From contig NZ_JOGX01000059.1 of NCBI RefSeq assembly GCF_000719555.1, positions 1 to 39,654 on the forward strand: 39,654 bases of DNA, written 5' to 3'. The position numbers and the translations under genes are program-made. The stretch is from Streptomyces sp. NRRL F-5727 (GTDB lineage: Bacteria; Actinomycetota; Actinomycetes; Streptomycetales; Streptomycetaceae). Shown here piece after piece: positions 838 through 13,851 of this stretch (position 1 is its first letter; each line of letters opens with the position of its first letter). The notes below the pieces were generated by a model, which had not been told where the DNA came from, did no database searches, and was given only the letters and a program-made list of their open reading frames with translations.

Positions 838-862
838 CCGCCGGGAAAGTCCTCCCGCTCCG

Positions 863-1792
863 TCAGGTGCCAGAGCCCGAGAGGCGCGGAGAGCGTAGTC
901 GTCGCGGAGTACGTTCTTCGGGAGCGCGTCGGTCGTGGGGATCGGCGAGGTCTCGGCCGGGTGGGCCAGGTACGCCCAGACCCCGCTGTCCAGCGGCACC
1001 ACGGGCCTGTCGTCGTGGGGCGGGCGCCAGGGCGCGCCGGTGCGCGGGTGGCGGGGGGCGAGAAGCAGGTCGGGGCGAGGACGGGGCGGCGGAAGACCCG
1101 GACCGGCGAGGGCTGTGGAGAGGGCGTCGGGGCCGACGGGGAGGTACTGCCGCACGGCGTGGCCCAGCAACTCCGTGACGAGACCGGCGGGAAGGGCCAC
1201 CGGGCGGCCCTCGGAGGCCCGCGACGAGGTGGGCGAGCGCGACACCGATCGCCGCATGCCAACGCAGACTCCACCCACCGTCCGGCTCCACCGGCGGGAC
1301 ACGGTGCTCGGGGCGGGTGAGGTCGTCCCAGCCGGGCGGCGGTCCGCCCGGACGCCCCGAGCGCGGCGTACCACCGTGTCCGGCTCCAGCCAGACCGCCT
1401 GCCAGATGCCGCAGTCGTCCAGACGCGTCGCGACGGCGCGCCCGCACCCCTCGCACGCCAGGTTGGGACCGCCGCGGCCGTCGATTCCCTGGCAGTCGCC
1501 GTCGCACTTGTCGAGGATCAGCGTCAGGGACCGGGAGTCGCCCGGCGCTATGACGATCCGGTTCCGCGCCCCGAAGGAGACGAAGCGCACCGGCACGTAC
1601 ACGCCCTGCCGGGCCGCCCCCTCCTCCGCCGACCTCCTCCCACGGCCGCCAGGGCGGCGCCGTGGGCAGCGGCTCGACGGCGTATGTCGAGGACGCCATC
1701 AGCGGCGGATGCAGCTCCTCCCATCCGCCGTGGTGCGCGTGCACGGGAAGGGCGACCCGCGACACGGGCGCCGTCAACTCCGGTTCGGTCAC
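863..1792 (-). pseudogene. Frameshifted Cys-containing conserved hypothetical, last gene of the transporter operon
   Basis: No single frame encodes this protein, but a convincing one can be followed across frames. It starts at GTG 1792, which overlaps the MFS stop as GTGA. Frame A gives a segment ending PPWRPWEEV. It switches at a C5 run (1617-1621) to a frame reading VYVPVRFVSFGARNRIVIAP and then KCDGDCQG and ACEGCGRAV, a cysteine-rich stretch that could bind metal. It returns to frame A near 1375 (GWDDLTRPEHRVPPVEPDGG) and changes again near 1210 (GRPVALPAGLVTELLGHAV, then VPLDSGVWAYLAHPAE). All three shifts fall in G/C homopolymers, so they are either real decay or consensus sequencing errors. 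The C-terminal end is uncertain: candidate stops lie at 863 or 804, the latter overlapping the convergent monooxygenase. I recall the protein only as a Streptomyces conserved hypothetical without known function. Confidence 0.6.
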
Positions 1793-3015
1793 GCCCCCGT
1801 CCCGCCCCCGTCCGGCAGGCGCCGGATCGTGCCTCTCCGTTCGTCCGTGGACGGGACGAGGCCCAGGGCGAGGAGGGGGAGGGTGCCCAGGAGGAGCCAG
1901 GGGAGGGGGCCGGTGTGGTCGAGCAGGGCGCCGGTGGGGGCGGACGCGGTCAGGACGGCCAGGCCGGAGAGGGAGGACAGGGCTCCGGTGAAGAGGCCCA
2001 GATGACGGTGGCCGACCAGCTCGGGGAGCATGGCGCGGGTCGCGGGGAGGATCAGCATCTGGCCGACCGTGAGCAGCAGCGTGAACGCCAGGGCCGCCCA
2101 CACGCCTCCCGCCGGTCGCAGCAGCGCCGCCGTCGCGAAGGAGGAGGCGATGAGCAGCAGACCGGCCCTCGCCATGCCCGTGTGGTCCAGGCGCGTGGCG
2201 GCCAGTCTCTCCAGCGGTCCGGAACCGGCCACGACCAGCGCCGCCGAGAGCGCGAACAGCCAGCCCAGCGCCCTCTGCGAGCCCGTCGACCGGTCGAGTT
2301 CCGCCGGCAGCGCCAGATAGAGCTGGTTGTACGCCAGCAGGTAGACCGCGTACGCGCCCGCGAGCCGCAGGAAGCGGCGGTTCCCGAGGACGAGCCGCCC
2401 CGCCGCCGCCGGCCCCGCGCCTCCGCCGCCGGCGGCCGTCCGCGTGTGCGGCATCAGCCGGGCGTGGGCGGCGAGGACCAGCGCGAACACGCCCGCCCCG
2501 GTCAGACACGCCAGGCGGAAGGCTTCGGAACCGCCCCAGGTGAGGAGGGCGGTGCCGACGACCGGGCCGAGCAGGGCGCCGGCCTGGCCGCCGGCCGAGA
2601 AGCGGGCGAGGGTACGCGTACGGCGGTGACCTCCCGCCTCCTCGATCCGCAGCGCCTCCCGGGTGATCTCGGACTCGACGGCCGGGGAGAACAGCGCGGC
2701 GGCGAAGCCGACGAGGACGACGGCGCCGATGACGGTGCCGGCGCCGGCCGCCTCCGCGAGCCAGCAGAAGCCGGCGACGCGCAGCGCGCAGCCGACCAGG
2801 ACCACGGGCCGGGGCCCGTACCGGTCGGTGAGCATGCCGCCGACGACGAACAGCCCCTGCTGGCTGAAGGTGCGCAGCCCGAGGACGAGCCCGACCACGG
2901 CCCCGCTCAGTCCGAGCGTTCCCGCCAGGTGGGCGGCGAGGTAGGGGAGGACGGCGAAGAAGCCGATGTTGAACGCGAACTGACTGAGTATCAGCAGGCG
3001 GGCCAGCGGGGTCAC
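1789..3015 (-). CDS. MFS transporter, possible metallophore exporter (CntE position)
   Basis: Encodes a 408-residue, strongly hydrophobic protein with the length and layout of a 12-helix DHA1-type MFS permease. The loop motif GGMLTDRYGPRPV between helices 2 and 3 is the MFS signature A. The GTG start at 3015 overlaps the stop of the upstream ATPase gene as GTGA, and its own stop overlaps the next start in the same way, so it is translated as part of the operon. In the Staphylococcus Cnt locus an MFS protein (CntE) sits directly after the import ABC genes and exports the metallophore. By position and Zur-type control this protein could do the same, but that is inference. Alternatives are drug or peptide efflux. 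Confidence 0.85.
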   Translation of the reverse strand: MTPLARLLILSQFAFNIGFFAVLPYLAAHLAGTLGLSGAVVGLVLGLRTFSQQGLFVVGGMLTDRYGPRPVVLVGCALRVAGFCWLAEAAGAGTVIGAVVLVGFAAALFSPAVESEITREALRIEEAGGHRRTRTLARFSAGGQAGALLGPVVGTALLTWGGSEAFRLACLTGAGVFALVLAAHARLMPHTRTAAGGGGAGPAAAGRLVLGNRRFLRLAGAYAVYLLAYNQLYLALPAELDRSTGSQRALGWLFALSAALVVAGSGPLERLAATRLDHTGMARAGLLLIASSFATAALLRPAGGVWAALAFTLLLTVGQMLILPATRAMLPELVGHRHLGLFTGALSSLSGLAVLTASAPTGALLDHTGPLPWLLLGTLPLLALGLVPSTDERRGTIRRLPDGGGTGA

Positions 3016-3686
3016 GGGAGGAGCCTCCCGTCCTTCATCGTCAGGACGCGGTCGCTGACGTGCCGGACCGCCGCGTGGTCGTGGGAGATGAGCAGGAAGC
3101 CGACTCCCAGGCCGTCCTGGAGATCCATCAGCAGGTTGAGGATCCCCGCGCGCAGCGAGGGGTCGAGCGCGGAGGTCGGCTCGTCGAGGACGAGCAGCTC
3201 GGGCCGTGTCGCCAGCGCGCGGGCGATGGCGACACGCTGGCACTGGCCGCCGGACAGTTCGTGCGGCAGCCGCCGTCCGTGGACGGGCGAGAGGCCGACG
3301 AGCCCCAGGAGTTCGTCCACCCGGGCCGGGCCGTCCGCGGCCCGCCACAGCCCGTGGACCCGCAGGGGCTCCGCGATCTGGTGGCGCACCTCGCGGCGGG
3401 GGCTCAACGCGCCGTACGGATCCTGGAAGACGGGCTGGAACCGGCGGCGCAGCGGCCGGAGTTCGCGTGCGCCGAGGGCGGTCAGCTCGACCCCGGAGAA
3501 GCGCACCGAACCGGAGTGCGGCCGCAGCAGCCCCAGGACCGCCTGGGCCGTCGTCGACTTGCCGCAGCCCGAGGGGCCGACGAGCCCGACGGCCTCCCCG
3601 GCGCCGACGGTGAACGACACGCCGTCGACGACCAGCCGTTCTCCGTACCGTACGTCGAGGTCCCGGACCTCCAGGAGGGCGTTCAC
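3012..3686 (-). CDS. Peptide/nickel-type ABC transporter ATPase, DppF/CntF-like
   Basis: Encodes a 224-residue ATP-binding subunit of an Opp/Dpp/Nik-type importer. Walker A is GPSGCGKST (residues 37-45), the signature LSGGQ is at 144-148, Walker B LLVLDEP at about 164-170, and the H-loop histidine is at 202 (SHD). At 224 residues it is shorter than usual DppF proteins (about 300) and stops just after the nucleotide-binding domain, so it lacks the C-terminal oligopeptide extension seen in its partner upstream. The GTG start at 3686 overlaps the upstream stop (GTGA), and the stop overlaps the MFS start (GTGA). With the other ATPase it would form a heterodimer driving import through the fused permease. 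Confidence 0.9.
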   Translation of the reverse strand: MNALLEVRDLDVRYGERLVVDGVSFTVGAGEAVGLVGPSGCGKSTTAQAVLGLLRPHSGSVRFSGVELTALGARELRPLRRRFQPVFQDPYGALSPRREVRHQIAEPLRVHGLWRAADGPARVDELLGLVGLSPVHGRRLPHELSGGQCQRVAIARALATRPELLVLDEPTSALDPSLRAGILNLLMDLQDGLGVGFLLISHDHAAVRHVSDRVLTMKDGRLLP

Positions 3687-4651
3687 GCGGCCTCCCCGAC
3701 GGGGTGATGGCAGGCCACGGCGCGGCCGTCCACCTCGCGGAGCGCCGGCTCCTCCTGCCGGCAGAGGTCGGCGGCATGCCGGCAGCGGGGCGCGAAGGAG
3801 CACCCCGCGCCGCTCGCGCCGGGGGCGGGCGGCGCGCCGGCGAGGACGGGCAGGCGGGTACGCCGGGGCAGCCCGGTGCGGGGGAGCGAGGCGAGCAGCC
3901 CTCGCGTGTACGGGGCGACGGGGCCCTCCAACACCTGCTCCGACGCGCCGAGTTCGACGATCCGACCCGCGTACATCACGGCCACCCGGTCGGCGTGCCG
4001 GCGCACCGCCGCCAGGTCGTGGCTGACGAGCAGCAGGGCGGCCCGGGTGGCCGCGCAGCGCTCCCGCAGCAGGGTGAGCACCTGCTCCTGGCGCTCCGGG
4101 TCGAGCGCGGTGGTCGGTTCGTCGGCCACGACCAGCGCGGGCCCGTTGACCAGGGCCATCGCGATCACCGCCCGCTGCCGCATGCCGCCCGACAGAGCGT
4201 GCGGCGCCGCGCCGGCCGCCTCCGGCCCGAGCCCGACCTCGGCGAGCGCCCGGCGCGCCACGGCCAGCGCCTCGCGGCGCCCCGCACCCGCCACCGACCG
4301 CACGGCGAAGGCGAGCTGGTCCTCGACGCGGTGCACGGGCGACAGGGCCGACATGGCGTCCTGCGGGATCCACGCCAGGCGGCGGCCGAGATCGGCCGGC
4401 GTGACCGGGCCGCCGTCCAGCAGGACCCGGCCGTGGACACCGGCCGCGCGCGGGACCATCCCCAGCAGCGCCCGCGCGGTGAGGGACTTGCCCGCACCGG
4501 ACTCGCCGACCAGCGCGAACACCTCACCCGCGGCCACGTCGAAGGAGACCCCGCGCACGGCCTCGCCGTCAGGGAAGCCGATCCGCAGACCGTCCACCCG
4601 CAGCAGGGGCACGAGGGGTTCGGACAGGGGGAGTTGCGTGGGGCGGGACAA
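3683..4651 (-). CDS. Peptide/nickel-type ABC transporter ATPase, DppD/CntD-like
   Basis: Encodes a 322-residue ATPase of the Opp/Dpp/Nik family. Walker A is GESGAGKS (49-56), the signature is LSGGM (153-157), Walker B VVADEP (about 174-179) and the H-loop SHD (210-212). The C-terminal oligopeptide/dipeptide extension holds four cysteines (284, 290, 297, 314) in CSFAPRC and nearby, the usual pattern of DppD/OppD tails. The TTG start at 4651 is preceded by GAGGAG about 10 nt upstream, which supports it; a GTG at 4612 is the alternative. The 5' end overlaps the permease gene by 83 nt, unusually long for this operon, so the permease C-terminus may carry a spurious tail. Confidence 0.9.
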   Translation of the reverse strand: MSRPTQLPLSEPLVPLLRVDGLRIGFPDGEAVRGVSFDVAAGEVFALVGESGAGKSLTARALLGMVPRAAGVHGRVLLDGGPVTPADLGRRLAWIPQDAMSALSPVHRVEDQLAFAVRSVAGAGRREALAVARRALAEVGLGPEAAGAAPHALSGGMRQRAVIAMALVNGPALVVADEPTTALDPERQEQVLTLLRERCAATRAALLLVSHDLAAVRRHADRVAVMYAGRIVELGASEQVLEGPVAPYTRGLLASLPRTGLPRRTRLPVLAGAPPAPGASGAGCSFAPRCRHAADLCRQEEPALREVDGRAVACHHPVGEAA

Positions 4652-6524
4652 GGGGCCGGACTCTCCTCGAAGCGACGACGGAAGGGAGACGAAGACGGAG
4701 AAGGGGGTGTGCGCGGGCCCGCGGCCCGCCGACGGACGACGACAGGCAGACCGCGAGCGCCGCGAGCAGGGCCAGCGCCACCGCCGGGGCGAGCGCGGGG
4801 ACCGGTGCCCGCTCGACGTAGTCGGCCGACTCGTCGAGCAGCAGCCCCCATTCGGGCGACGGGGGCCGCGCGCCCAGCCCCAGGAAGCCGAGCGAAGCCA
4901 GCGCGAGCGCGATGCCCGGCAGCCGGAGCACGGCGTGCCGGGCGACCGGCCCGGCCACCGACGGCAGGACGTGCCGGGTCCACACCCACAACGGCCCCGC
5001 GCCGATGGCGCGTTGGGCCAGCAGGAAGCGGGAGGCCCGGATCTCCTGGACCAGCGCCGCCGCGTGCGCGGCGAGCGGCGGCCAGGACACCAGGGTCACG
5101 GCGAGCGCCGCCGCCCCGCTTCCCGGGCCGGTCACGGCCGCGACCAGCAGCCCGGTGAGGACCGGCGGCAGCGCGTTGGCGACGTCCGCGAGCCCGGCCG
5201 CCACCCCGGGGACGAAGCCCAGGACCACGGCGACGAGCCAGCTCACGCACGTGACGGCCGCGGCCGTGCCCACGGTGGCCGCCGCGCCGTGCCCGAGCCG
5301 GGCGAGCACGTCACGGCCGAGCGCGTCCGCGCCGAGCGGATGCCCCGGCGACGGCGCGGCCAGCCGGGCCGCGACGTCCACGGCGTACGGATCGCGCAGC
5401 AGCCCCCAGCCGATCACCCCGGTGAGCAGCACCGCGAGTCCCACCGGTACGGCGCGCGGGATCCGCCGCGGTGCCGGTGCGGGCAGACCGAGCCCGGCCT
5501 CCCGTGACGCGGGCCCGAGCAGCCGGCGGCGTACCAGCGAGGCGGCGGCCCCGGCGAGCAGGCCGAGCCCGAGCAGGGCCAGGACACAGCCCTGGAGCAG
5601 CGGCAGGTCCTGGGAGGTGGCGGCGCCCAGCGCCGTACGGCCGATGCCGGGCACGGCGAACACCGTCTCGACGGCGACCGCGCCGCCGGTCAGACCGACG
5701 GCCACCATGCCGAACTGCCCCGCGAGCGCGGGCATCGCACGCCGGACCGCCGCGCCGGCGATCCGCCACCGGCCGGTGCCCGCGCCCCGCCAGAGCTCGA
5801 CCCACCGCTCGCCGAGGACGGCCGGCAGCGCGTCCGCGACCAGCCGGCCGAGGAGCGCGCCGGCCGGGACGCCGAGCGCCACCGCCGGCAGCACCAGATG
5901 GGCTGGTCCCGCCCAGCCCGAGGTGGGCAGCCACCCCAGCCACACGCCGACGGCGAGCACCAGCACCAGGGCGAACAGGAACTCGGGCACGGCCGCGAGC
6001 ACCGCCGCCACCGTCCCGCCGGTGGCCCGCCCCCGCAGCAGCGCCGGCGCGGCGAGCAGCGTCCCGACGACGAGGGCGGTCGCCAGCGCAGCGCCCATCA
6101 GGGTCAGGGACACGCCGAGCCCGGCGCCGACGGCCGGCAGCACCTCGGCGCCCGACACCCACGAGACCCCCAGGTCGCCGTGGAGCAGCCGGCCCAGCCA
6201 CCCGCCGAGCAGGCCCGACGGGCCGGCGTCCAGGCCGAGATCGGCGCGGATGGCGGCGAGCGCCTCGGGCGTCGGCTCCTGTTCGGCGGACCGGGCGCGC
6301 AGCAGCGCGAGCGCCGGGTCCTTGCCGGAGAGCCACGGCAGCAGCCCGACGGCGGTCACCACGGCGGCCAGGGCGACGAGCCGTACGGCCCCGGCCCGGA
6401 GGGCGGCGGCCGACGGGCGCCGCACGGCCCGCCTGGGCTTCCGGGGTCTCCGGGGCTTCCGGAGTGCGGCGGGAACGGCGGGTGCGACACGGCCGCCGCC
6501 CGTGCGGGGGACGGAAGTCCTCAC
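4569..6524 (-). CDS. Fused two-domain ABC permease (DppB-DppC / CntB-CntC type)
   Basis: A single 651-residue polypeptide contains both permease halves of an Opp/Dpp/Nik importer, normally two proteins. Residues ~45-335 resemble DppB: an N-terminal helix, a periplasmic loop with LLHGDLGVSWV, and an EAA-like loop LWRGAGTGRWRIAGAAVRRA. Residues ~350-605 resemble DppC: HPLGADALGRDVLARLGHGA, then the EAA-like loop AIGAGPLWVWTRHVLPS, then FLGLGARPPSPEWGLLL. The start is GTG 6524, overlapping the binding-protein stop (GTGA). The first ~45 residues are Arg/Pro-rich. The last ~60 residues after the final hydrophobic helix are Arg/Pro-rich, overlap the next gene and look non-native, so a 3' frameshift is possible. 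It would form the channel for a peptide, nickel chelate or metallophore. Confidence 0.88.
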   Translation of the reverse strand: MRTSVPRTGGGRVAPAVPAALRKPRRPRKPRRAVRRPSAAALRAGAVRLVALAAVVTAVGLLPWLSGKDPALALLRARSAEQEPTPEALAAIRADLGLDAGPSGLLGGWLGRLLHGDLGVSWVSGAEVLPAVGAGLGVSLTLMGAALATALVVGTLLAAPALLRGRATGGTVAAVLAAVPEFLFALVLVLAVGVWLGWLPTSGWAGPAHLVLPAVALGVPAGALLGRLVADALPAVLGERWVELWRGAGTGRWRIAGAAVRRAMPALAGQFGMVAVGLTGGAVAVETVFAVPGIGRTALGAATSQDLPLLQGCVLALLGLGLLAGAAASLVRRRLLGPASREAGLGLPAPAPRRIPRAVPVGLAVLLTGVIGWGLLRDPYAVDVAARLAAPSPGHPLGADALGRDVLARLGHGAAATVGTAAAVTCVSWLVAVVLGFVPGVAAGLADVANALPPVLTGLLVAAVTGPGSGAAALAVTLVSWPPLAAHAAALVQEIRASRFLLAQRAIGAGPLWVWTRHVLPSVAGPVARHAVLRLPGIALALASLGFLGLGARPPSPEWGLLLDESADYVERAPVPALAPAVALALLAALAVCLSSSVGGPRARAHPLLRLRLPSVVASRRVRPLVPPHATPPVRTPRAPAAGGRSADRLP

Positions 6525-8035
6525 CGTACGAAGGTGTCGACGGTGACGAGTTCACGCTCGCGCGGGTCGTGCGCGGCGTCCACGATGTTCGCGCCGTCGC
6601 CCTGGATGACCCGCTCGTGCAGCAGCGGCACGGCGGCGTCGGTGGCGAGCACGGCGGCCTCCGCGGCGACGACGGCCTTCCTGCGGGCCTCGCCCGTGGC
6701 CGTCGCCGAGGCGGTGGTGAGCGCCGAGTCGACGGCGGGGTCGGAGAGCTGGGAGAGGTTGAAGGAGCCGTCTCCCGCGAAGTCGCTGTACAGATAGGCG
6801 GCGGGGTCCCCGGAGTCGAGGACGGTGGCCCGGGAGAGGACGAAGGCGTCGAACTTCCCCGCCAGGGCGTCGGCTTCGATGTGCGCGTACTCGCGGACGT
6901 CCAGCTCGACCTGGAAGCCGGCCTTGCGCAGCTGCTGCTGGAGGAGCTGGGCGACCTCGGGCAGTTCGGCGCGGTCCGTGAACGTGCCGATGGTGATCCG
7001 CGCGCCCTTCGGGTCGGCCGCCGCGGTGTGCCGGACGGGGGTGCGGAGCTTCGCCGCCCAGGGCAGCGCCGGCCCGAGCAGCCCGCCGGCGCGGTCCGCG
7101 CGGCCCTCGTACACGCCCGAGACGAGGCTCCGGGTGTCGACGGCCTCACGGGCGGCGGCCCGCAGCGCCGGGTCGCGGAACGCGCCGCGTTCGGTGTTCA
7201 GGTACAGGGTGTTGGTCCGGGGCATGGGGACCTCGGTGACGAGCTTCGGGTCCAGCAGCCCGGCCTGCGAGACGGGGACGGCCTCGACGATGTCGGCCTC
7301 GCCGCTGCGCAGCGCCGCGGCCCGGGCGGTCCCGTCGGGCACGTAGCGCACGTCGATGCCGGCGGCCTTGGCCCTGCCGCCCCAGTAGCGGTCGTACCGG
7401 TCGAGGGTCGCGGACGCGGTGCCCTCGGCGCGGACGAGGACGAAGGGCCCGGTTCCGGCGCCGACCGGGTCGACGGTCCTGCCCCGGTACGCCTTGGCGG
7501 CGAGGACCGAGAGCTGCGGGGAGCTGAGCCGGTGCGGGACGAGGGGGTCGGGCGTCGCGGTGGTCACGGTGACCTCGTGCGGGCCGGACGCCCGGACGGT
7601 GAGGTCGACGCCGTCGAGGATCCGCGGCTTGGGGGAGGCCGTGGCGGCGGTGGAGAGCGAGCGGACGACGTCGGCGGCGGTGAGCGGGCTGCCGTCGTGG
7701 AAGGTGACGCCCTCGCGCAGGGTGAACGTCCAGGTCCGGCCCTGCTGCCGCCACTCCGTGGCGAGGGAGGGGCGCGCGTCGCCGTCGCGGTCCAGCCGGA
7801 CCAGCGTCTCGGCGGTGGACCAGCGGGACAGCTTGAAGGCGTCGTCGGAGAGCGGGGAGAGCCCCGACCGAGGGGGCTGCATCATGGCGACCCGGACGCG
7901 CCCGCCGTCGCCTTCGCCGGACACGTCCTCACTGCCGGCGAAGCAGCCGCTGAGGAGGGCCGAGACGGTGGCGGCCGCGGTGAGGGCGAGTATGCGGCGG
8001 CGGAGGGGGGAGGGGCTGGTGGGCAGGGGAGACAC
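6521..8035 (-). CDS. ABC transporter solute-binding lipoprotein, SBP_bac_5 family (CntA/NikA/DppA type)
   Basis: Encodes 504 residues. An N-terminal signal with RRR, a hydrophobic stretch and the lipobox LSGC (Cys31) marks a lipoprotein anchored outside the membrane. Family 5 features include LSRWSTAETLVRLDRDGDARP, LATEWRQQGRTWTFTLREGVTFHDGSPL and the later PRTNTLYLNTERGAFRDPALR. This family binds peptides, nickel chelates, opine metallophores or sugars. The GTG start at 8035 has GAGGAC 5 nt upstream. A Zur-like box lies 49-63 nt before the start, inside a promoter-like pair, so the whole downstream operon (permease, ATPases, MFS, Cys protein) is probably induced in zinc shortage. A zinc-metallophore role is inference from that box and the gene order. 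Confidence 0.9.
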   Translation of the reverse strand: MSPLPTSPSPLRRRILALTAAATVSALLSGCFAGSEDVSGEGDGGRVRVAMMQPPRSGLSPLSDDAFKLSRWSTAETLVRLDRDGDARPSLATEWRQQGRTWTFTLREGVTFHDGSPLTAADVVRSLSTAATASPKPRILDGVDLTVRASGPHEVTVTTATPDPLVPHRLSSPQLSVLAAKAYRGRTVDPVGAGTGPFVLVRAEGTASATLDRYDRYWGGRAKAAGIDVRYVPDGTARAAALRSGEADIVEAVPVSQAGLLDPKLVTEVPMPRTNTLYLNTERGAFRDPALRAAAREAVDTRSLVSGVYEGRADRAGGLLGPALPWAAKLRTPVRHTAAADPKGARITIGTFTDRAELPEVAQLLQQQLRKAGFQVELDVREYAHIEADALAGKFDAFVLSRATVLDSGDPAAYLYSDFAGDGSFNLSQLSDPAVDSALTTASATATGEARRKAVVAAEAAVLATDAAVPLLHERVIQGDGANIVDAAHDPRERELVTVDTFVR

Positions 8036-8074
8036 GGGAGTCCTCGGGGTGGTGCGGGGAGTGAGATCCGGACT

Positions 8075-8102
8075 TTATCAGAATGAAAATCATTACAGAT
8101 AA
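8075..8102 (-). promoter_or_regulatory. Zur-like box in promoter of the transporter operon
   Basis: Plus-strand TGAAAATCATTACAG at 8084-8098 is a 7-1-7 imperfect inverted repeat close to the actinobacterial Zur consensus (about TGAAAATnATTTTCA). On the minus strand it lies within the 16-nt spacer between TTATCT (8102-8097, -35-like) and TGATAA (8080-8075, -10-like), upstream of the GTG at 8035. Binding of zinc-loaded Zur there would block RNA polymerase. Confidence 0.7.
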
Positions 8103-8466: not shown

Positions 8467-9726
8467 ATGCCCCGAACCGCCCCGGCCCCGCACCCGTACC
8501 GGCCGTACCGGCCGCGCCGGGCCGCCGTCACCGCGCTGCTCCTCGCCGCCGCGCTGACCGCCCCCACCCTCCCGTACGCGAGCGCGGGCGAGCGGCCCGC
8601 GCTGAGCGCCGGCGCCACCGACGTCTCGGACCAGGAGCTGCGGCGCGCCCTCACCGACCTCGTCGCCGCCCCCGGCGGGCCGCCCGGCGCGATCGCCGTC
8701 CTCACGCGGGACGGCCACCGGCAGGTCTACCGGGCCGGTACCGCCGAGGTCGGCACGGCCAGGCCGCCCCGCGCGCACGACCACATGCGGATCGCGAGCG
8801 TCGCCAAGGCGTTCAGCGGGGCCGTCGCCCTGAGCCTCGTGGACCGCCACGCGCTCCGCCTCGACGACACCCTGGGGCAGCGCCTGCCGCACCTCCCGAA
8901 GGCATGGCACGCCGTGACGCTCCGTCAGCTGCTCCAACACACGAGCGGCCTGCCGGACTTCAGCAAGACCGAGCGCTTCCAGGCGATCGTCCGGGCGGAC
9001 CCCCGGCACCGCTTCGACTCCCGGCGCCTGCTGGAGTTCGCCGCCGACCAGGGCCTCGCCTTCCCGCCCGGTACCCGCTACGCCTACTCCAACTCGGACA
9101 ACATCGCGGTCGCCCTGATGGCCGAGCAGGCGACGGGACGACGGTACGAGGACCTCCTCAGGGAACTCGTCTACCGCCCGCTCGACCTGCGCGGCACCAG
9201 CCTCCCCTCCGGCTTCCGGCTGCCCCGACCCTTCCTCCACGGCTACGCCACGGCTCCCGGCGAGGCGCCGGAGGACGTCAGCGAGGCGGTCAGCGCCTCC
9301 GGTGCGTGGGCGTCGGGCGGCATCGTCTCGACCCCCGCCGACCTGGGCGCCTTCTTCGGCGGCTACGCGGGGCCCGCCCTCCTCTCCCCGAAGACCCGGC
9401 ACGCGCAGACCCGCTTCGTCCCCGGCGACTCCCAGCCGGCCGGACCGGGTGTGAACGCGGCCGGCCTGGGCCTCTTCCGCTACACCACCCGCTGCGGCAC
9501 GGTCCTCGGCCACACCGGGAACACCCCGGGCTACACCCAGTTCGCCGCCGCCACCCGCGACGGCCGCCGCACCGTCACCGTCTCCGTCACCAGCCAGGTC
9601 CCCCTCGACCCCGCCCTCCTCGCCCGCCTTCGCGCGACCGAGGAACGCTTCGTCTGCGCCCTCCTCAAGGACGGCGACCACGGCGGCCACGGAGTCGACG
9701 GCGGCTACGGAGCCGACGCCGTCTGA
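8467..9726 (+). CDS. Secreted serine hydrolase, class C beta-lactamase / D-Ala-D-Ala carboxypeptidase fold
   Basis: Encodes 419 residues with a signal peptide (Arg-rich start, hydrophobic AAVTALLLAAALTA, likely cleavage near ASAGE, residue ~41). The penicillin-recognition motifs are present: S111-V-A-K114 (SxxK nucleophile and base), Y207-S-N209 (YxN) and H349-T-G351 replacing KTG, as in class C-like esterases and carboxypeptidases. It would act outside the cell on D-Ala-D-Ala, a beta-lactam or an ester; the motifs cannot tell which. ATG 8467 has AGGAGG 6 nt upstream. It lies inside the zinc island but is transcribed alone and shows no Zur-like box. A strong hairpin follows the stop. Confidence 0.9.
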   Translation: MPRTAPAPHPYRPYRPRRAAVTALLLAAALTAPTLPYASAGERPALSAGATDVSDQELRRALTDLVAAPGGPPGAIAVLTRDGHRQVYRAGTAEVGTARPPRAHDHMRIASVAKAFSGAVALSLVDRHALRLDDTLGQRLPHLPKAWHAVTLRQLLQHTSGLPDFSKTERFQAIVRADPRHRFDSRRLLEFAADQGLAFPPGTRYAYSNSDNIAVALMAEQATGRRYEDLLRELVYRPLDLRGTSLPSGFRLPRPFLHGYATAPGEAPEDVSEAVSASGAWASGGIVSTPADLGAFFGGYAGPALLSPKTRHAQTRFVPGDSQPAGPGVNAAGLGLFRYTTRCGTVLGHTGNTPGYTQFAAATRDGRRTVTVSVTSQVPLDPALLARLRATEERFVCALLKDGDHGGHGVDGGYGADAV

Positions 9727-9808: not shown

Positions 9809-10981
9809 TCAGGCCGCGTGCTCGTGCTCGCAGGCGTCCTCGATGCCGTACGTCTCCCAGGCGGGGAACTCGTCGTCGGCGGGCGCCGGTTCGCCCGGTG
9901 CCAGCAGGCAGGCGTCCAGGGCCGTCCGAAGGGCGTCGGCGCGCAGGCCGGTGCCGATGAAGACCAGTTCCTGGCCCTGGGCGGTCCCGGGGTCGCGGGC
10001 GCCGGACGGTTCGAACCGGGCCACGGCGCCGGCCTGGGACCAGAGGCCGGTCACCCGGGGCCGGCTGGCGAGCCAGAAGAACCCCTTGGAGCGCAGGATC
10101 CGTCCGTGCGCACCGCTGTCGAGGCCCTCGGTGACGAAGGTCCACAGCCGTCCGGGGTGGAAGGCGCGGGCGGAGCGGTAGACGAGCGAGGAGATGCCGT
10201 ACTCCTCGGTCTCCGGCACGTGGTCGCCGTTGAGCTCCTTCACCCAGCCGGGGGCCTGCTGCGCCGTCTCGACGTCGAACAGGCCGGTGCCCAGCACCAG
10301 TTCGAGCGGAACCTGGCCGCGTACGGCGGGGACGATCCGGGCCTGCGGGTTCAGCCGGGTCAGCGCGGCGCGGAGCCGGCGCGTCTCCTCCGGACCCACC
10401 AGGTCGAGCTTGTTGAGCACGATGACGTCCGCGAACTCCACCTGGTCCACGAGGAGATCGCTGACGGTCCGCTCGTCGTCCTCGTACGGCGCGAGGCCGC
10501 GCGCGGCGAGTTCGTCGCCGCCGTCGAGTTCCGGCAGGAAGCCCGCCGCGTCCACCACGGTCACCATCGTGTCGAGGCGGGCGAGGTCGCCGAGGGTGGC
10601 CCCGTCGTCCCGGGGGAACGAGAACGTCGCGGCGACCGGCAGGGGTTCGGAGATCCCGCTGGACTCGACGAGCAGGTAGTCGAACCGGCCCTCGCGGGCC
10701 AGCCGGTCGACCTCCTCCAGGAGGTCGTCCCGCAGGGTGCAGCAGATGCACCCGTTGGTCAGCTCGACCAGGCGCTCCTCCGTGCGGGACAGCGAGGCCC
10801 CGCCGCCGCGCACGAGCGCGGCGTCGATGTTGACCTCGCTCATGTCGTTGACGATGACCGCGACGCGCAGTCCCTCGCGGTTGGCCAGGACATGGTTGAG
10901 CAGAGTGGTCTTGCCCGCGCCCAGGAATCCGGAGAGGACGGTCACGGGAAGGCGGTCGTGCGCGTTCACGGGCTCTCTCAT
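9809..10981 (-). CDS. COG0523 / CobW-family zinc metallochaperone GTPase
   Basis: Encodes 390 residues of the G3E GTPase family. The P-loop is GFLGAGKTT (18-26), the family metal motif is GCICC (77-81), Walker B-like ESSGISEP is at 106-113, and the guanine motif NKLD is at 190-193. The CobW C-terminal domain follows, and the tail DACEHEHAA is rich in metal ligands. Zur-regulated members (ZagA/YciC type) deliver zinc to priority enzymes when zinc is short. The ATG start at 10981 overlaps the stop of rpmF as ATGA, so the two are translationally coupled; a GTG at 10969 is the alternative start. Control by the Zur-like box before rpmF fits a zinc-allocation role. Confidence 0.92.
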
Positions 10982-11148
10982 CCCTCCGGGCGGATGAGGC
11001 CGCGCTCGTACGCCTTCACCAGCCGCTGCGGGACCTGGTGGACGACACCGTCGACGGTGACCGGGACCAGCTGGGGCGTGCTCGCCTTCCACTGGGCGCG
11101 GCGGTGGCGGGTGTTGCTGCGGGACATCTTCCGCTTGGGGACGGCCAT
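10978..11148 (-). CDS. rpmF: 50S ribosomal protein L32, zinc-free paralogue
   Basis: A 56-codon gene beginning [21 protein letters not shown] and ending [15 protein letters not shown], which is the L32 pattern. The usual C-terminal CxxC pairs that hold zinc are absent and the protein has no cysteine, so it is the zinc-independent (C-) form that replaces the zinc-binding L32 in starvation. ATG 11148 has GAGGAG 6 nt upstream. Its stop overlaps the downstream cobW-like start (ATGA). A Zur-like box in the promoter directly upstream supports induction at low zinc. Confidence 0.92.
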
Positions 11149-11183: not shown

Positions 11184-11211
11184 CCTATATGAAAACGAAT
11201 GTCATGAGCAA
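11184..11211 (-). promoter_or_regulatory. Zur-like box in promoter of rpmF-cobW operon
   Basis: Plus-strand TGAAAACGAATGTCA (11190-11204) matches the outer half-sites of the Zur consensus. On the minus strand it fills the 16-nt spacer between TTGCTC (11211-11206, -35-like) and TATAGG (11189-11184, -10-like). Confidence 0.7.
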
Positions 11212-11312: not shown

Positions 11313-11618
11313 CTACCAGGAGGACTTGGTCACTCCTGGCAGGAACCCGGCATGGGCCTGCTCGCGCATCCGCACCCGCGAGAGCCCGAAGGTCCGCAGA
11401 TAGCCGCGGGGGCGGCCGTCCACGCTGTCGCGGTTGCGGACGCGGGTGGCGCTGGCGTCGCGCGGCTGCCGGCGGAGCTCCGCCTGGGCGGCCTCACGGT
11501 CGGCCGGCGTGGAGGACGGGCGGCGGATGATCTCCTTCAGCTCGGCCCGCCGGGCGGCGTACCGCTCGACGATCTGCCTGCGCTGCTCGTTCCGCGCGAT
11601 CTTGCTCTTCTTCGCCAT
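11313..11618 (-). CDS. rpsN: 30S ribosomal protein S14, zinc-free paralogue
   Basis: 101 residues beginning [20 protein letters not shown] and ending with the S14 signature [18 protein letters not shown] and KSSW. It is the long, cysteine-free type of S14 rather than the ~61-residue CxxC zinc-binding form, so it works without zinc. Its ATG overlaps the stop of rpmB by one base (TGATG), giving a coupled rpmB-rpsN operon. The Zur-like box upstream of rpmB would control both. Confidence 0.95.
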
Positions 11619-11854
11619 CAGACCTTCCCTCCGCGCGCGCGGATCCGGGCCACCGCGGCCTCGATGCCGATGGTGTCCACCGTCTTGATCGCGCGTGCGC
11701 TCAGCGTCAGTCGCACGTGCCGCCCCTCGCTGGGCAGCCAGTAGCGCTTGCGCTGGATGTTGGGGTCGAAGCGGCGCGAGGTGCGCCGGTGGGAGTGGGA
11801 GATGGCGTTGCCGAATCCCGGCTTGGCGCCGGTCAGTTGGCAGTGTGCGGACAT
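11618..11854 (-). CDS. rpmB: 50S ribosomal protein L28, zinc-free paralogue
   Basis: 78 residues: starts [20 protein letters not shown] and contains [20 protein letters not shown], the L28 signature. It has a single cysteine instead of the paired CxxC motifs of zinc-binding L28, so it is the C- form. ATG 11854 was chosen because the family begins at MSAHC; in-frame codons farther upstream run into the Zur box. It is divergent from rpmG across a 67-bp region that carries the Zur-like box. Confidence 0.95.
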
Positions 11855-11887: not shown

Positions 11888-11915
11888 TTGGAAATGGAAA
11901 TCATTGTCATATACT
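11888..11915. promoter_or_regulatory. Divergent Zur-like box between rpmB and rpmG with rpmG promoter
   Basis: TGGAAATCATTGTCA (11895-11909) is a 7-1-7 Zur-like repeat. For rpmG it fills the 16-nt spacer between TTGGAA (11888-11893) and the -10 TATACT (11910-11915). The expected start of transcription is 6 nt after the -10, at 11922, which is the A of the rpmG ATG, so this mRNA is probably leaderless. For rpmB the same box overlaps a weak ATGACA -35-like hexamer. Confidence 0.75.
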
Positions 11916-11921
11916 AGCGGC

Positions 11922-12086
11922 ATGGCACGCAACGAGATCCGCCCGATCATCAAGCTCCGCTCCACGGCGGGCACCGGCTTCACCTACGTGACGCGCAAGA
12001 ACCGCCGCAACGACCCCGACCGGATGGTGCTCCGCAAGTACGACCCCGTGGCCCGGCGCCACGTCGACTTCCGCGAAGAGCGCTGA
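11922..12086 (+). CDS. rpmG: 50S ribosomal protein L33, zinc-free paralogue
   Basis: 54 residues: [20 protein letters not shown], then [20 protein letters not shown] and [12 protein letters not shown]. This is L33 without any cysteine, so it is the C- form. The ATG at 11922 has no Shine-Dalgarno sequence, and the -10 TATACT ends 6 nt upstream, consistent with a leaderless transcript. It heads a plus-strand operon with rpmE, a COG0523-like gene and rpsR. Confidence 0.95.
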
Positions 12087-12139: not shown

Positions 12140-12385
12140 ATGAAGCCCGGAATCCACCCCGCCTACGAGCCCGTCGTCTTCCGCGACTCCGCCTCCGGCA
12201 CCGCGTTCCTCACCCGGTCCACGATGACCAGCGAGAAGACGATCGAGTGGGAGGACGGCCGGACCTACCCCGTCGTCGACGTCGAGATCTCCTCCGCCAG
12301 CCACCCCTTCTACACGGGCACGGCGCGGGTGCTCGACACCGCCGGCCGCGTCGAGAAGTTCCAGCGCCGCTACGGTGCCCGCTGA
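12140..12385 (+). CDS. rpmE2: 50S ribosomal protein L31 type B, zinc-free paralogue
   Basis: 81 residues: [20 protein letters not shown], then [18 protein letters not shown] and [20 protein letters not shown]. This is the type B L31, which lacks the cysteines of type A and is Zur-controlled in many bacteria. GAAAGG lies upstream of ATG 12140. Its stop overlaps the next start by one base (TGATG). It lies 53 bp after rpmG with no terminator seen, so the two are probably co-transcribed. Confidence 0.96.
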
Positions 12386-13542
12386 TGGGGCACGCGTACA
12401 CCCACCAGCTCCCCGTCGTGATCGTCGCCGGCCTGCACGCCGAGGCGAGGACCGAGGTCGTCGACCGCCTCCTGCGGGCCGTCCCCGGCAGCGTCGCGCT
12501 CCACCACGACCTGGCGGAGGCGCCCGCCGGCAGCGTCGCCCGCACGATCCGCGACGCCGCCGGCACCGTCTCCCGCGGCGACACCCCGCTGGTCAACGAC
12601 TGCGCCTGCTGCGCCCTCCGCGAGGACCTCGTCCCCGAACTGGAGCGGCTGGCCGACGGCGGCCTCACCCGCCTCGCCGTGGTCGAGCTCTGGGACTCGG
12701 TCGAACCCAAGGCCATGGCCGAGGTGATCGCCGCCCACGGCGGGGACCGGCTCGTCCTGACGAACGTGATCACCGCCGTCGACCCCGCGCTCGTCCTGCC
12801 CTGCCTCGCCAACGGCGACGACCTGGCGGAGGCCGGCCTCGCCGCGGCCGCCACCGACCAGCGGACCGTCGGCGACACCTGGGCACGACAGCTGGAGTAC
12901 GCGCCCGTCCTCGCCGTCGTCGACAGCGAAGCGGCCGACGACGAGGACCACGCCCTCCTCGCGCAGCTGCACCCCACGGCCCGCCGCGTGCCGGCCGGCT
13001 CCCCCGAACTCGCCCGGGTCGCCCTCGCCGGCTTCGACGTCGAGGCGGCCGCCGCCGCCCAGCACCCGGCATGCGCCCTGCTGCCCCAGGAAGCCGACGA
13101 ATCGGGCGTCGCCACCTTCGTCTGGCACCGCAGGCGCCCGTTCCACCCCGAACGCCTCTACCAGGCGCTGGAGGACCTGTGCTGCGCCGCCGCCCGCAGC
13201 CGCGGCCGGTTCTGGCTCGCCGACCGACCCGACACCCTGCTCGCCTGGGACGCGGCCGGCGGAGCGCTCTGCGTGGAGAACGCCGGCCCCTGGCTGGCGT
13301 CGCTGCCCGACGCGGCCTGGGAGATGGTCCCGCCCATGCGGCGGGCGGCGGCCGCGCTCGACTGGCACCCCGAGCACGGCGACTGCTGCCAGCACCTCGT
13401 CTTCACCTCGCCCGGCCTCGACCGCGACGGCCTGGAACGGCTCCTCGACTCCTGCCTCCTGACGGACGCGGAGTACGCCTCCGGGCGCGAGGCGTGGAAG
13501 GAACTCCCCGCCGCCTTCGACACCCTCCTCGACGCGGCCTGA
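12385..13542 (+). CDS. COG0523-like protein with lost GTPase motifs and a His/Cys cluster
   Basis: 385 residues aligned end to end with the CobW-like protein at 9809-10981, but the GTPase core has decayed. The P-loop position reads GLHAEARTE (16-24) with no GK(S/T). The guanine-specificity motif NKLD is replaced by AVVDSE (177-182). ESSGISEP has become ELWDSVEP (101-108). The metal motif is kept as DCACC (72-76). Before the conserved LVF strand it has a ligand-rich segment, HPEHGDCCQH (328-337). It is therefore probably not a GTPase but may still bind metal, as a zinc reservoir, partner or regulator of the intact paralogue. It is coupled to rpmE2 and followed by rpsR, so it should be induced by zinc shortage. 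Function is inference. Confidence 0.88.
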   Translation: MGHAYTHQLPVVIVAGLHAEARTEVVDRLLRAVPGSVALHHDLAEAPAGSVARTIRDAAGTVSRGDTPLVNDCACCALREDLVPELERLADGGLTRLAVVELWDSVEPKAMAEVIAAHGGDRLVLTNVITAVDPALVLPCLANGDDLAEAGLAAAATDQRTVGDTWARQLEYAPVLAVVDSEAADDEDHALLAQLHPTARRVPAGSPELARVALAGFDVEAAAAAQHPACALLPQEADESGVATFVWHRRRPFHPERLYQALEDLCCAAARSRGRFWLADRPDTLLAWDAAGGALCVENAGPWLASLPDAAWEMVPPMRRAAAALDWHPEHGDCCQHLVFTSPGLDRDGLERLLDSCLLTDAEYASGREAWKELPAAFDTLLDAA

Positions 13543-13614: not shown

Positions 13615-13851
13615 ATGGCCCGACGCCACGAACCCCGCAAGCCCGCCGCGCGCCGCCCCAACCCGCTCGACGCGGCCGGGATCACGTACATCGACTACAA
13701 GGACACCGACCTGCTGCGGAAGTTCATCTCCGACCGCGGCAAGATCCGCAGCCGCCGCGTCACCCGGGTGACCGCCCAGCAGCAGCGCGCGCTGGCCACC
13801 GCCGTCAAGAACGCCCGCGAGATGGCCCTCCTGCCGTACGCCGGCCGCTGA
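13615..13851 (+). CDS. rpsR: 30S ribosomal protein S18, zinc-free paralogue
   Basis: 78 residues: [20 protein letters not shown], then [20 protein letters not shown] and the S18 signature [20 protein letters not shown]. No cysteine is present. GGAGAG precedes ATG 13615. It is the last gene of the plus-strand zinc-starvation operon and is followed by a strong hairpin. Confidence 0.95.

Follow-up and report, generated by a model that had tools for sequence, protein, structure and literature searches.

The window analysed here is a stretch of 39,654 nucleotides (contig NZ_JOGX01000059.1) from Streptomyces sp. NRRL F-5727, whose genome (assembly GCF_000719555.1) comprises 7.95 Mb in 187 contigs and is 99.99% complete. 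On its minus strand (1789-8035) it contains a five-gene transporter operon with the order A-BC-D-F-E, the subject of this analysis. Gene A (6521..8035) encodes a substrate-binding lipoprotein of 504 amino acids with the lipobox LLSGC, which is NikA/Opp5A-like and belongs to family 5 of the substrate-binding proteins (Pfam SBP_bac_5). BC (4569..6524) encodes a fused NikB- plus NikC-like permease of 651 amino acids with two BPD_transp_1 domains, D (3683..4651) an ATP-binding cassette (ABC) ATPase with an oligo_HPY tail and F (3012..3686) a NikE-like ABC ATPase (ABC_tran in both). The last gene, E (1789..3015), encodes a transporter of the major facilitator superfamily (MFS; Pfam MFS_1) with MdtH as top NCBIfam model (117 bits versus a cut-off of 469). 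A and BC, D and F as well as F and E overlap by 4 bases each, BC and D by 83 bases with the TTG start used. Because of its 4-base overlap with F, gene E is likely co-transcribed with it. An earlier note on this DNA had named exactly these parts in this order, and open reading frames and Pfam domains agree with it. The start of the unit was then set at 860, which is too low since no intact operon gene can be called in 840-1789. Between 840 and 1792 of the minus strand a reading frame would begin at the stop of E, but it is frame-broken and resembles a damaged sixth gene; downstream of E no sixth gene was called in two Streptomyces relatives (L095 and L101).

The promoter of A shows a box (8078-8092) with two mismatches to the Zur motif of S. 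coelicolor, tGaNNatSatNNtCa, as it is given in the excerpted text of PMC5472717. It is imperfect and can be read on the minus strand in two overlapping registers (8078..8098) with two and three mismatches. Six sites of the window have at most two mismatches. The sites at 8078, 11190 and 11895 are A+T-rich, and the latter two lie at promoters of a ribosomal/COG0523 gene island. With a tighter pattern and at most one mismatch only four sites were found in the whole source genome: position 96598 of contig 1, position 142949 of contig 7 and the window positions 11190 and 11895. The reversed control pattern gave none. The contig 7 site precedes genes readable from their sequence as znuA, znuC, znuB and zur.

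In related promoters the box is highly conserved. Among the A promoters of 71 Streptomyces loci (L095-L165) it occurs with at most two mismatches in all 71 and with at most one in 67. In the full set of 79 loci whose upstream sequence is long enough, 21, 47, 7, 2 and 2 promoters have zero, one, two, three and four mismatches, respectively, and the four loci with three or four are the proteobacterial ones. For comparison, 1046 regions before other genes called in these loci were used as control promoters; 6, 8 and 40 of them have zero, one and two mismatches (54 with at most two, 14 with at most one). In a second set of close orthologues the box is present with at most one mismatch in 20 of 20, but both sets overlap and share descent, so the cases are not independent. 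Zur control of A is considered well supported because the orthologous promoters carry the box, although the copy in the window is weak; the box reported by the earlier note thus stands as present and conserved before orthologues of A, with the reservation that the window copy is imperfect.

Outside the actinomycetes the operon is found in Vreelandella, two Kushneria and one metagenome-assembled genome of Halomonas, where genes for two ATPases are followed by A and BC and the A proteins are 64-65% identical to that of the window. Directly before the first ATPase gene all four loci have a perfect GTTATnnnATAAC, single in each locus of ~21.4 kb, and no copy with one mismatch was found elsewhere in the locus. 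A copy of GTTATnnnATAAC with one mismatch also precedes the operon in each of the plasmid loci of Rahnella, Thioclava (an alphaproteobacterium), Klebsiella and Chimaeribacter. Additional matches comprise a single site in Rahnella and two overlapping sites ahead of the hisI and Zur-like genes of Klebsiella. This palindrome is close to the Pseudomonas Zur consensus GWWAYWNNNTWHCR (quoted in PMC10393844); it is of gamma type and differs from the Streptomyces box. The plasmid loci examined in detail are these four records, only one of them from Klebsiella, and 538 plasmid records match A, 479 being from Klebsiella. In Rahnella and Klebsiella the gene order is D-F-E-A-BC and E is 39-41% identical to that of the window. 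The Klebsiella record (L191:153-12258) contains zigA (702 bits, above the cut-off), hisI and a Zur-like gene together with the D-F-MFS-A-BC operon, with Zur-like palindromes before the hisI/Zur-like genes and before D; the top model of its Fur-family gene is Zur (84.8 bits versus a cut-off of 167). A Zur-regulated cluster is described for the K. pneumoniae virulence plasmid pLVPK (Haas et al. 2009, PMC2770081), and the Klebsiella relative likewise lies on a plasmid beside zigA, hisI and a Zur-like gene, but the transporter is not mentioned in the excerpted text of that paper and the two are likened by description only. Near the operon of one Kushneria (L171) there is a TonB receptor gene and in L172 a similar gene. 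The Chimaeribacter locus contains DUF1007 and two genes with the annotation nickel or nickel/cobalt transporter; a DUF1007 gene with such a transporter gene is the layout of the zinc system ZevAB.

Boxes at 71/71 Streptomyces loci, Zur-like palindromes at 8/8 proteobacterial relatives and neighbours from a zinc island bear out the Zur control and zinc role that had been suggested. Both are well supported, the former as a prediction from conserved operators.

Within the genus, 52 of 121 genomes have a match to A at E ≤ 1e-60, and 21 of these 52 (source genome included) have an orthologue with at least 72% identity. The remaining matches are paralogues with 50-56% identity plus one with 38%. Judged by A, S. 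roseofulvus (92%) is the closest named species, and S. roseolus (88%) comes first among the named loci examined at locus level. In the tree of A the window protein, close Streptomyces orthologues, proteins from Saccharothrix and Nocardiopsis and all eight proteobacterial rows form a clade of 19 members (support 100/100); the branches of the E. coli references are very long, and the order of these references is unsure.

Three paralogue groups (B1, B2 and B3) were seen, all outside this clade. B1 (eight loci, L068-L074 and L082) has the order A-BC-E, with D and F not in the operon, adjoins genes readable as ispD, ispF and cysS and carries the Zur box with at most one mismatch in 8/8. An ABC-ATPase-like gene lies ~7 kb off and is at most 35-42% identical to F where matched. 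In a search for F alone, the matches listed for the eight B1 genomes include no close orthologue (best per genome 47-54% identical), and these A-BC-E operons may borrow ATPases from elsewhere. In B2 (L075, L078, L083 and L084) A-BC is preceded by a palindrome in place of the Zur box. This palindrome resembles the iron box of DmdR1, which would hint at metal chelates as the cargo of the family at large. B3 (L076, L077, L080, L081 and L085) shows A-BC-E in a third setting; the box is absent in four loci and L085 has a site with two mismatches. Beside one B-type A-BC pair (L079:3049-8163) there are genes readable from their sequence as an AztABCD-like zinc importer.

Gene E is an optional partner and not a constant part of the module. 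Of the 64 named loci that have A-BC-D-F and sufficient sequence behind it, 12 contain an E with an identity of 50% or more within the searched span; it lies at most 213 bases from the last gene in 11 of them and 1.7 kb off in L159.

The ligand class of A was approached by family models, profiles and structure. Among the models for substrate-binding proteins NikA/Opp5A is on top (194 bits), compared with GsiB (82), CntA (58.8), DppA (40.6) and OppA (40.4). The cut-offs at equivalog level are far higher than the scores of A, both for NikA (194 versus 600 and 115.8 versus 393 bits) and for DppA and OppA (40.6 versus 1005 and 40.4 versus 947 bits). A profile of the A family ranked the solved structures 3t66 (231.7 bits), 5u4o (189.1) and SaNikA (173.8) first and then GsiB/YliB (157.5), E. 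coli NikA (142.7), DppA (123.1) and CntA (116.3). In the comparison of A with the CntA and NikA structures that had been proposed, the predicted structure (predicted local distance difference test score 87.3) fits all of the ranked folds, those of NikA, DppA, GsiB and CntA alike, which settles nothing; the profile ranks NikA above CntA. With the NikABCDE-type nickel/cobalt importers (E. coli NikA, SaNikA, NikZ) the operon shares the subunit set and the top profile scores; it differs from them by its Zur-type boxes, the extra MFS gene, residue Asp407 of A and scores below the family cut-offs.

We consider it probable, with considerable reserve, that the operon encodes a Zur-repressed Nik-type (family 5) ABC importer which takes up zinc on a small preformed chelator at zinc shortage. 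The DNA itself shows the components and how they are arranged, as well as the conservation of the Zur operators and the zinc-regulon neighbourhood, and from these we infer the uptake steps. Upon falling zinc Zur would leave the box, and lipoprotein A would capture a small zinc complex formed with a foreign metallophore or with amino acids or peptides. BC together with D and F would import this complex and zinc would be freed inside, and E, where present, could return or clear the emptied ligand. Such a role of E in ligand efflux would fit both its optional occurrence and the lack of synthesis genes. A ligand supplied by another organism, the fallback of the earlier note, is favoured, and the mechanism as a whole appears likely. 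Some observations weigh against this explanation. The box in the window is weak if taken alone, as with up to three mismatches there are 40 matches in the window versus 11 expected, and the tighter pattern misses the box of A at 8078. Moreover, two features of A diverge, since the family models point to NikA-type chelate binders and D407 to DppA and OppA; it aligns with an Asp of these two proteins that E. coli NikA does not have and that presumably binds the peptide amine. The NikA-type scores and D407 would both be accommodated if the ligand carried a free amino group.

A wider proposal can be put forward only tentatively and is rather doubtful as a whole: A-BC-D-F with an optional MFS protein E for ligand efflux could be a mobile, Zur-controlled module for scavenging zinc chelates that is common to Actinomycetota and Pseudomonadota including their plasmids, with a different Zur operator in the latter and with Streptomyces A-BC-E paralogues borrowing ATPases, and that would let non-producers use the chelated zinc of others. 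If this is true, zinc piracy by Opp/Nik-type importers reaches beyond opine systems, and A offers one testable binding protein for a module with relatives in Streptomyces, halophiles, enterobacteria and plasmids.

Among the alternatives a Zur-controlled importer of peptides or amino acids (e.g., histidine or cysteine peptides), supplying amino acids or peptide-bound zinc, fares best, but we regard it as unlikely. It would account for D407, for the equally good fit of the DppA and GsiB folds, for the profile ranking, in which GsiB/YliB precedes E. coli NikA, and for the lack of an annotated TonB receptor in the stretches from Rahnella, Thioclava and Klebsiella, whose PLSDB gene tables are incomplete. 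The lead of the NikA/Opp5A model over GsiB, DppA and OppA, the iron-type palindromes at four paralogue loci and the TonB receptor of Kushneria argue against it.

Still less probable is a full cycle like that of the Staphylococcus Cnt system, with a metallophore made by this genome, exported by E and re-imported as zinc complex by A-BC-D-F. The operon shares with the staphylopine system the order A-B-C-D-F-E, a family 5 binding protein, an MFS partner and the link to zinc. The Cnt-like order claimed by the earlier note is indeed present, and the overlap of E with F favours such a unit, but A-B-C-D-F is generic for Nik-type operons (E. coli nikABCDE) and only the added E recalls Cnt. In contrast with Cnt, B and C are fused, A is nearer to NikA/Opp5A (the CntA-type model NF047575 gives 58.8 bits versus a cut-off of 800, NikA/Opp5A 194) and E is optional and MdtH-like. 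The note had supposed that CntKLM-type genes might lie elsewhere in the genome; CntL and CntM were searched and neither was found. Opine dehydrogenase of the CntM type (PF10100, which as positive control matches one of 296 class genomes, G362) was not detected in the source genome and is likewise missing from 20/20 further genomes that have a close orthologue of A (completeness 79% in one case), and CntL (NF033601, 240.6 bits on the CntL of L092) was not found in the source genome. PF03059 was rejected as a test for CntL as it misses the true actinomycete CntL of L092. SbnB-family matches were likewise discarded as a sign of ethylenediamine disuccinate (EDDS) synthesis; they are far under the cut-off (134.5 and 94.9 versus 326.9 bits) and lie in clusters that from their sequence are nonribosomal peptide synthetase-like and of a proline-racemase-type catabolic kind, surroundings that look unrelated. 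Membership of the Cnt family is therefore not supported, and the import/export cycle rests on E, which is absent from 52/64 complete relatives.

The sole opine cluster found among the 296 class genomes (L092:6684-12142, from another actinomycete genus) matches the CntK, CntL and CntM models under their cut-offs and adjoins a ribosomal zinc island. It shares the Zur-island neighbourhood and an MFS gene with the window, but has no relative of A or BC. Its importers read as FecCD type, its binding protein matches Peripla_BP_2, and E gave no BLASTP match to its MFS protein. In favour of a cycle, the excerpted text of Morey and Kehl-Fie (2020, PMC7438024) reports for actinobacterial opine clusters a FecCD importer only in 14/24 and FecCD plus a dipeptide/oligopeptide type in 10/24, so that oligopeptide-type importers do adjoin some of them.

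A further point in favour is a streptamidine-family cluster for a ribosomally synthesized and post-translationally modified peptide (RiPP) in the source genome (contig 1, ~87.3-96.6 kb; L175:9298-18608), which is led by a perfect Zur box. A FecBCDE-type operon is followed by genes for a YcaO/SagD-type maturase (214.1 bits versus a cut-off of 219.25), for a SagB-like enzyme and for a hydrolase, and then by two for ABC exporters, of which one was tested. Behind FecE there is a 37-residue peptide that scores 61.6 bits with the NCBIfam streptamidine model, above the cut-off of 40. This cluster is, however, equipped with a FecBCDE-type importer and with exporter genes of its own, and the maturase occurs in only 3/20 other genomes with a close orthologue of A. 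It is present in 13/121 genus genomes (source genome included). Nine of the 12 others were examined (L208-L216) and all nine have one or two boxes with at most one mismatch, 16 in total, which lie without exception at two promoters, before FecB or at the junction of FecE and precursor. Metal import was suspected in the streptamidine paper (PMC8442711), which reports that no metal, zinc among them, was bound and that metal starvation gave no phenotype, so that the published function is unknown; a search of its text finds no mention of Zur. A literature search that combined YcaO, Zur, zinc and RiPP for Streptomyces yielded no publication. The Zur boxes point to zinc, and in this way the regulon search provides the streptamidine peptides with a concrete zinc hypothesis.

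Finally, it is very improbable that the operon imports nickel or cobalt and that its Zur-like box is incidental. The best families are nickel Nik subunits, and a gene annotated as nickel transporter follows BC in Chimaeribacter, but Zur boxes are conserved in both phyla although the operators differ, the neighbours belong to a zinc island and the scores are far under the nickel family cut-offs. A literature search for Zur and nickel ABC transporters in Streptomyces found no publication. SCO0472-0476 of S. coelicolor, members of which appear as Zur targets in the excerpted texts of papers, was set aside as orthologue, the likeness being one of description and not of sequence.

Upstream of A a profile search revealed an AmpH/class C-like serine hydrolase (8467-9726; under cut-offs). 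It is followed on the minus strand by genes for a COG0523/ZigA-like zinc GTPase (9809..10969; 525 bits, cut-off 600), L32 (rpmF, 10978..11148), S14 (rpsN, 11313..11618) and L28 (rpmB, 11618..11854), with a Zur-like box found by motif match upstream of rpmF (11190..11204). A Zur box with one mismatch (11895..11909) separates L28 from the divergent L33 gene (rpmG, 11922..12086), behind which the plus strand encodes type B L31 (rpmE2, 12140..12385), a second COG0523 GTPase (12385..13542; MRF/ZigA-like, under cut-offs) and S18 (rpsR, 13615..13851). These six ribosomal proteins and two GTPases make up a zinc-sparing set. In S. himastatinicus (L165) the ribosomal island likewise lies near the operon.

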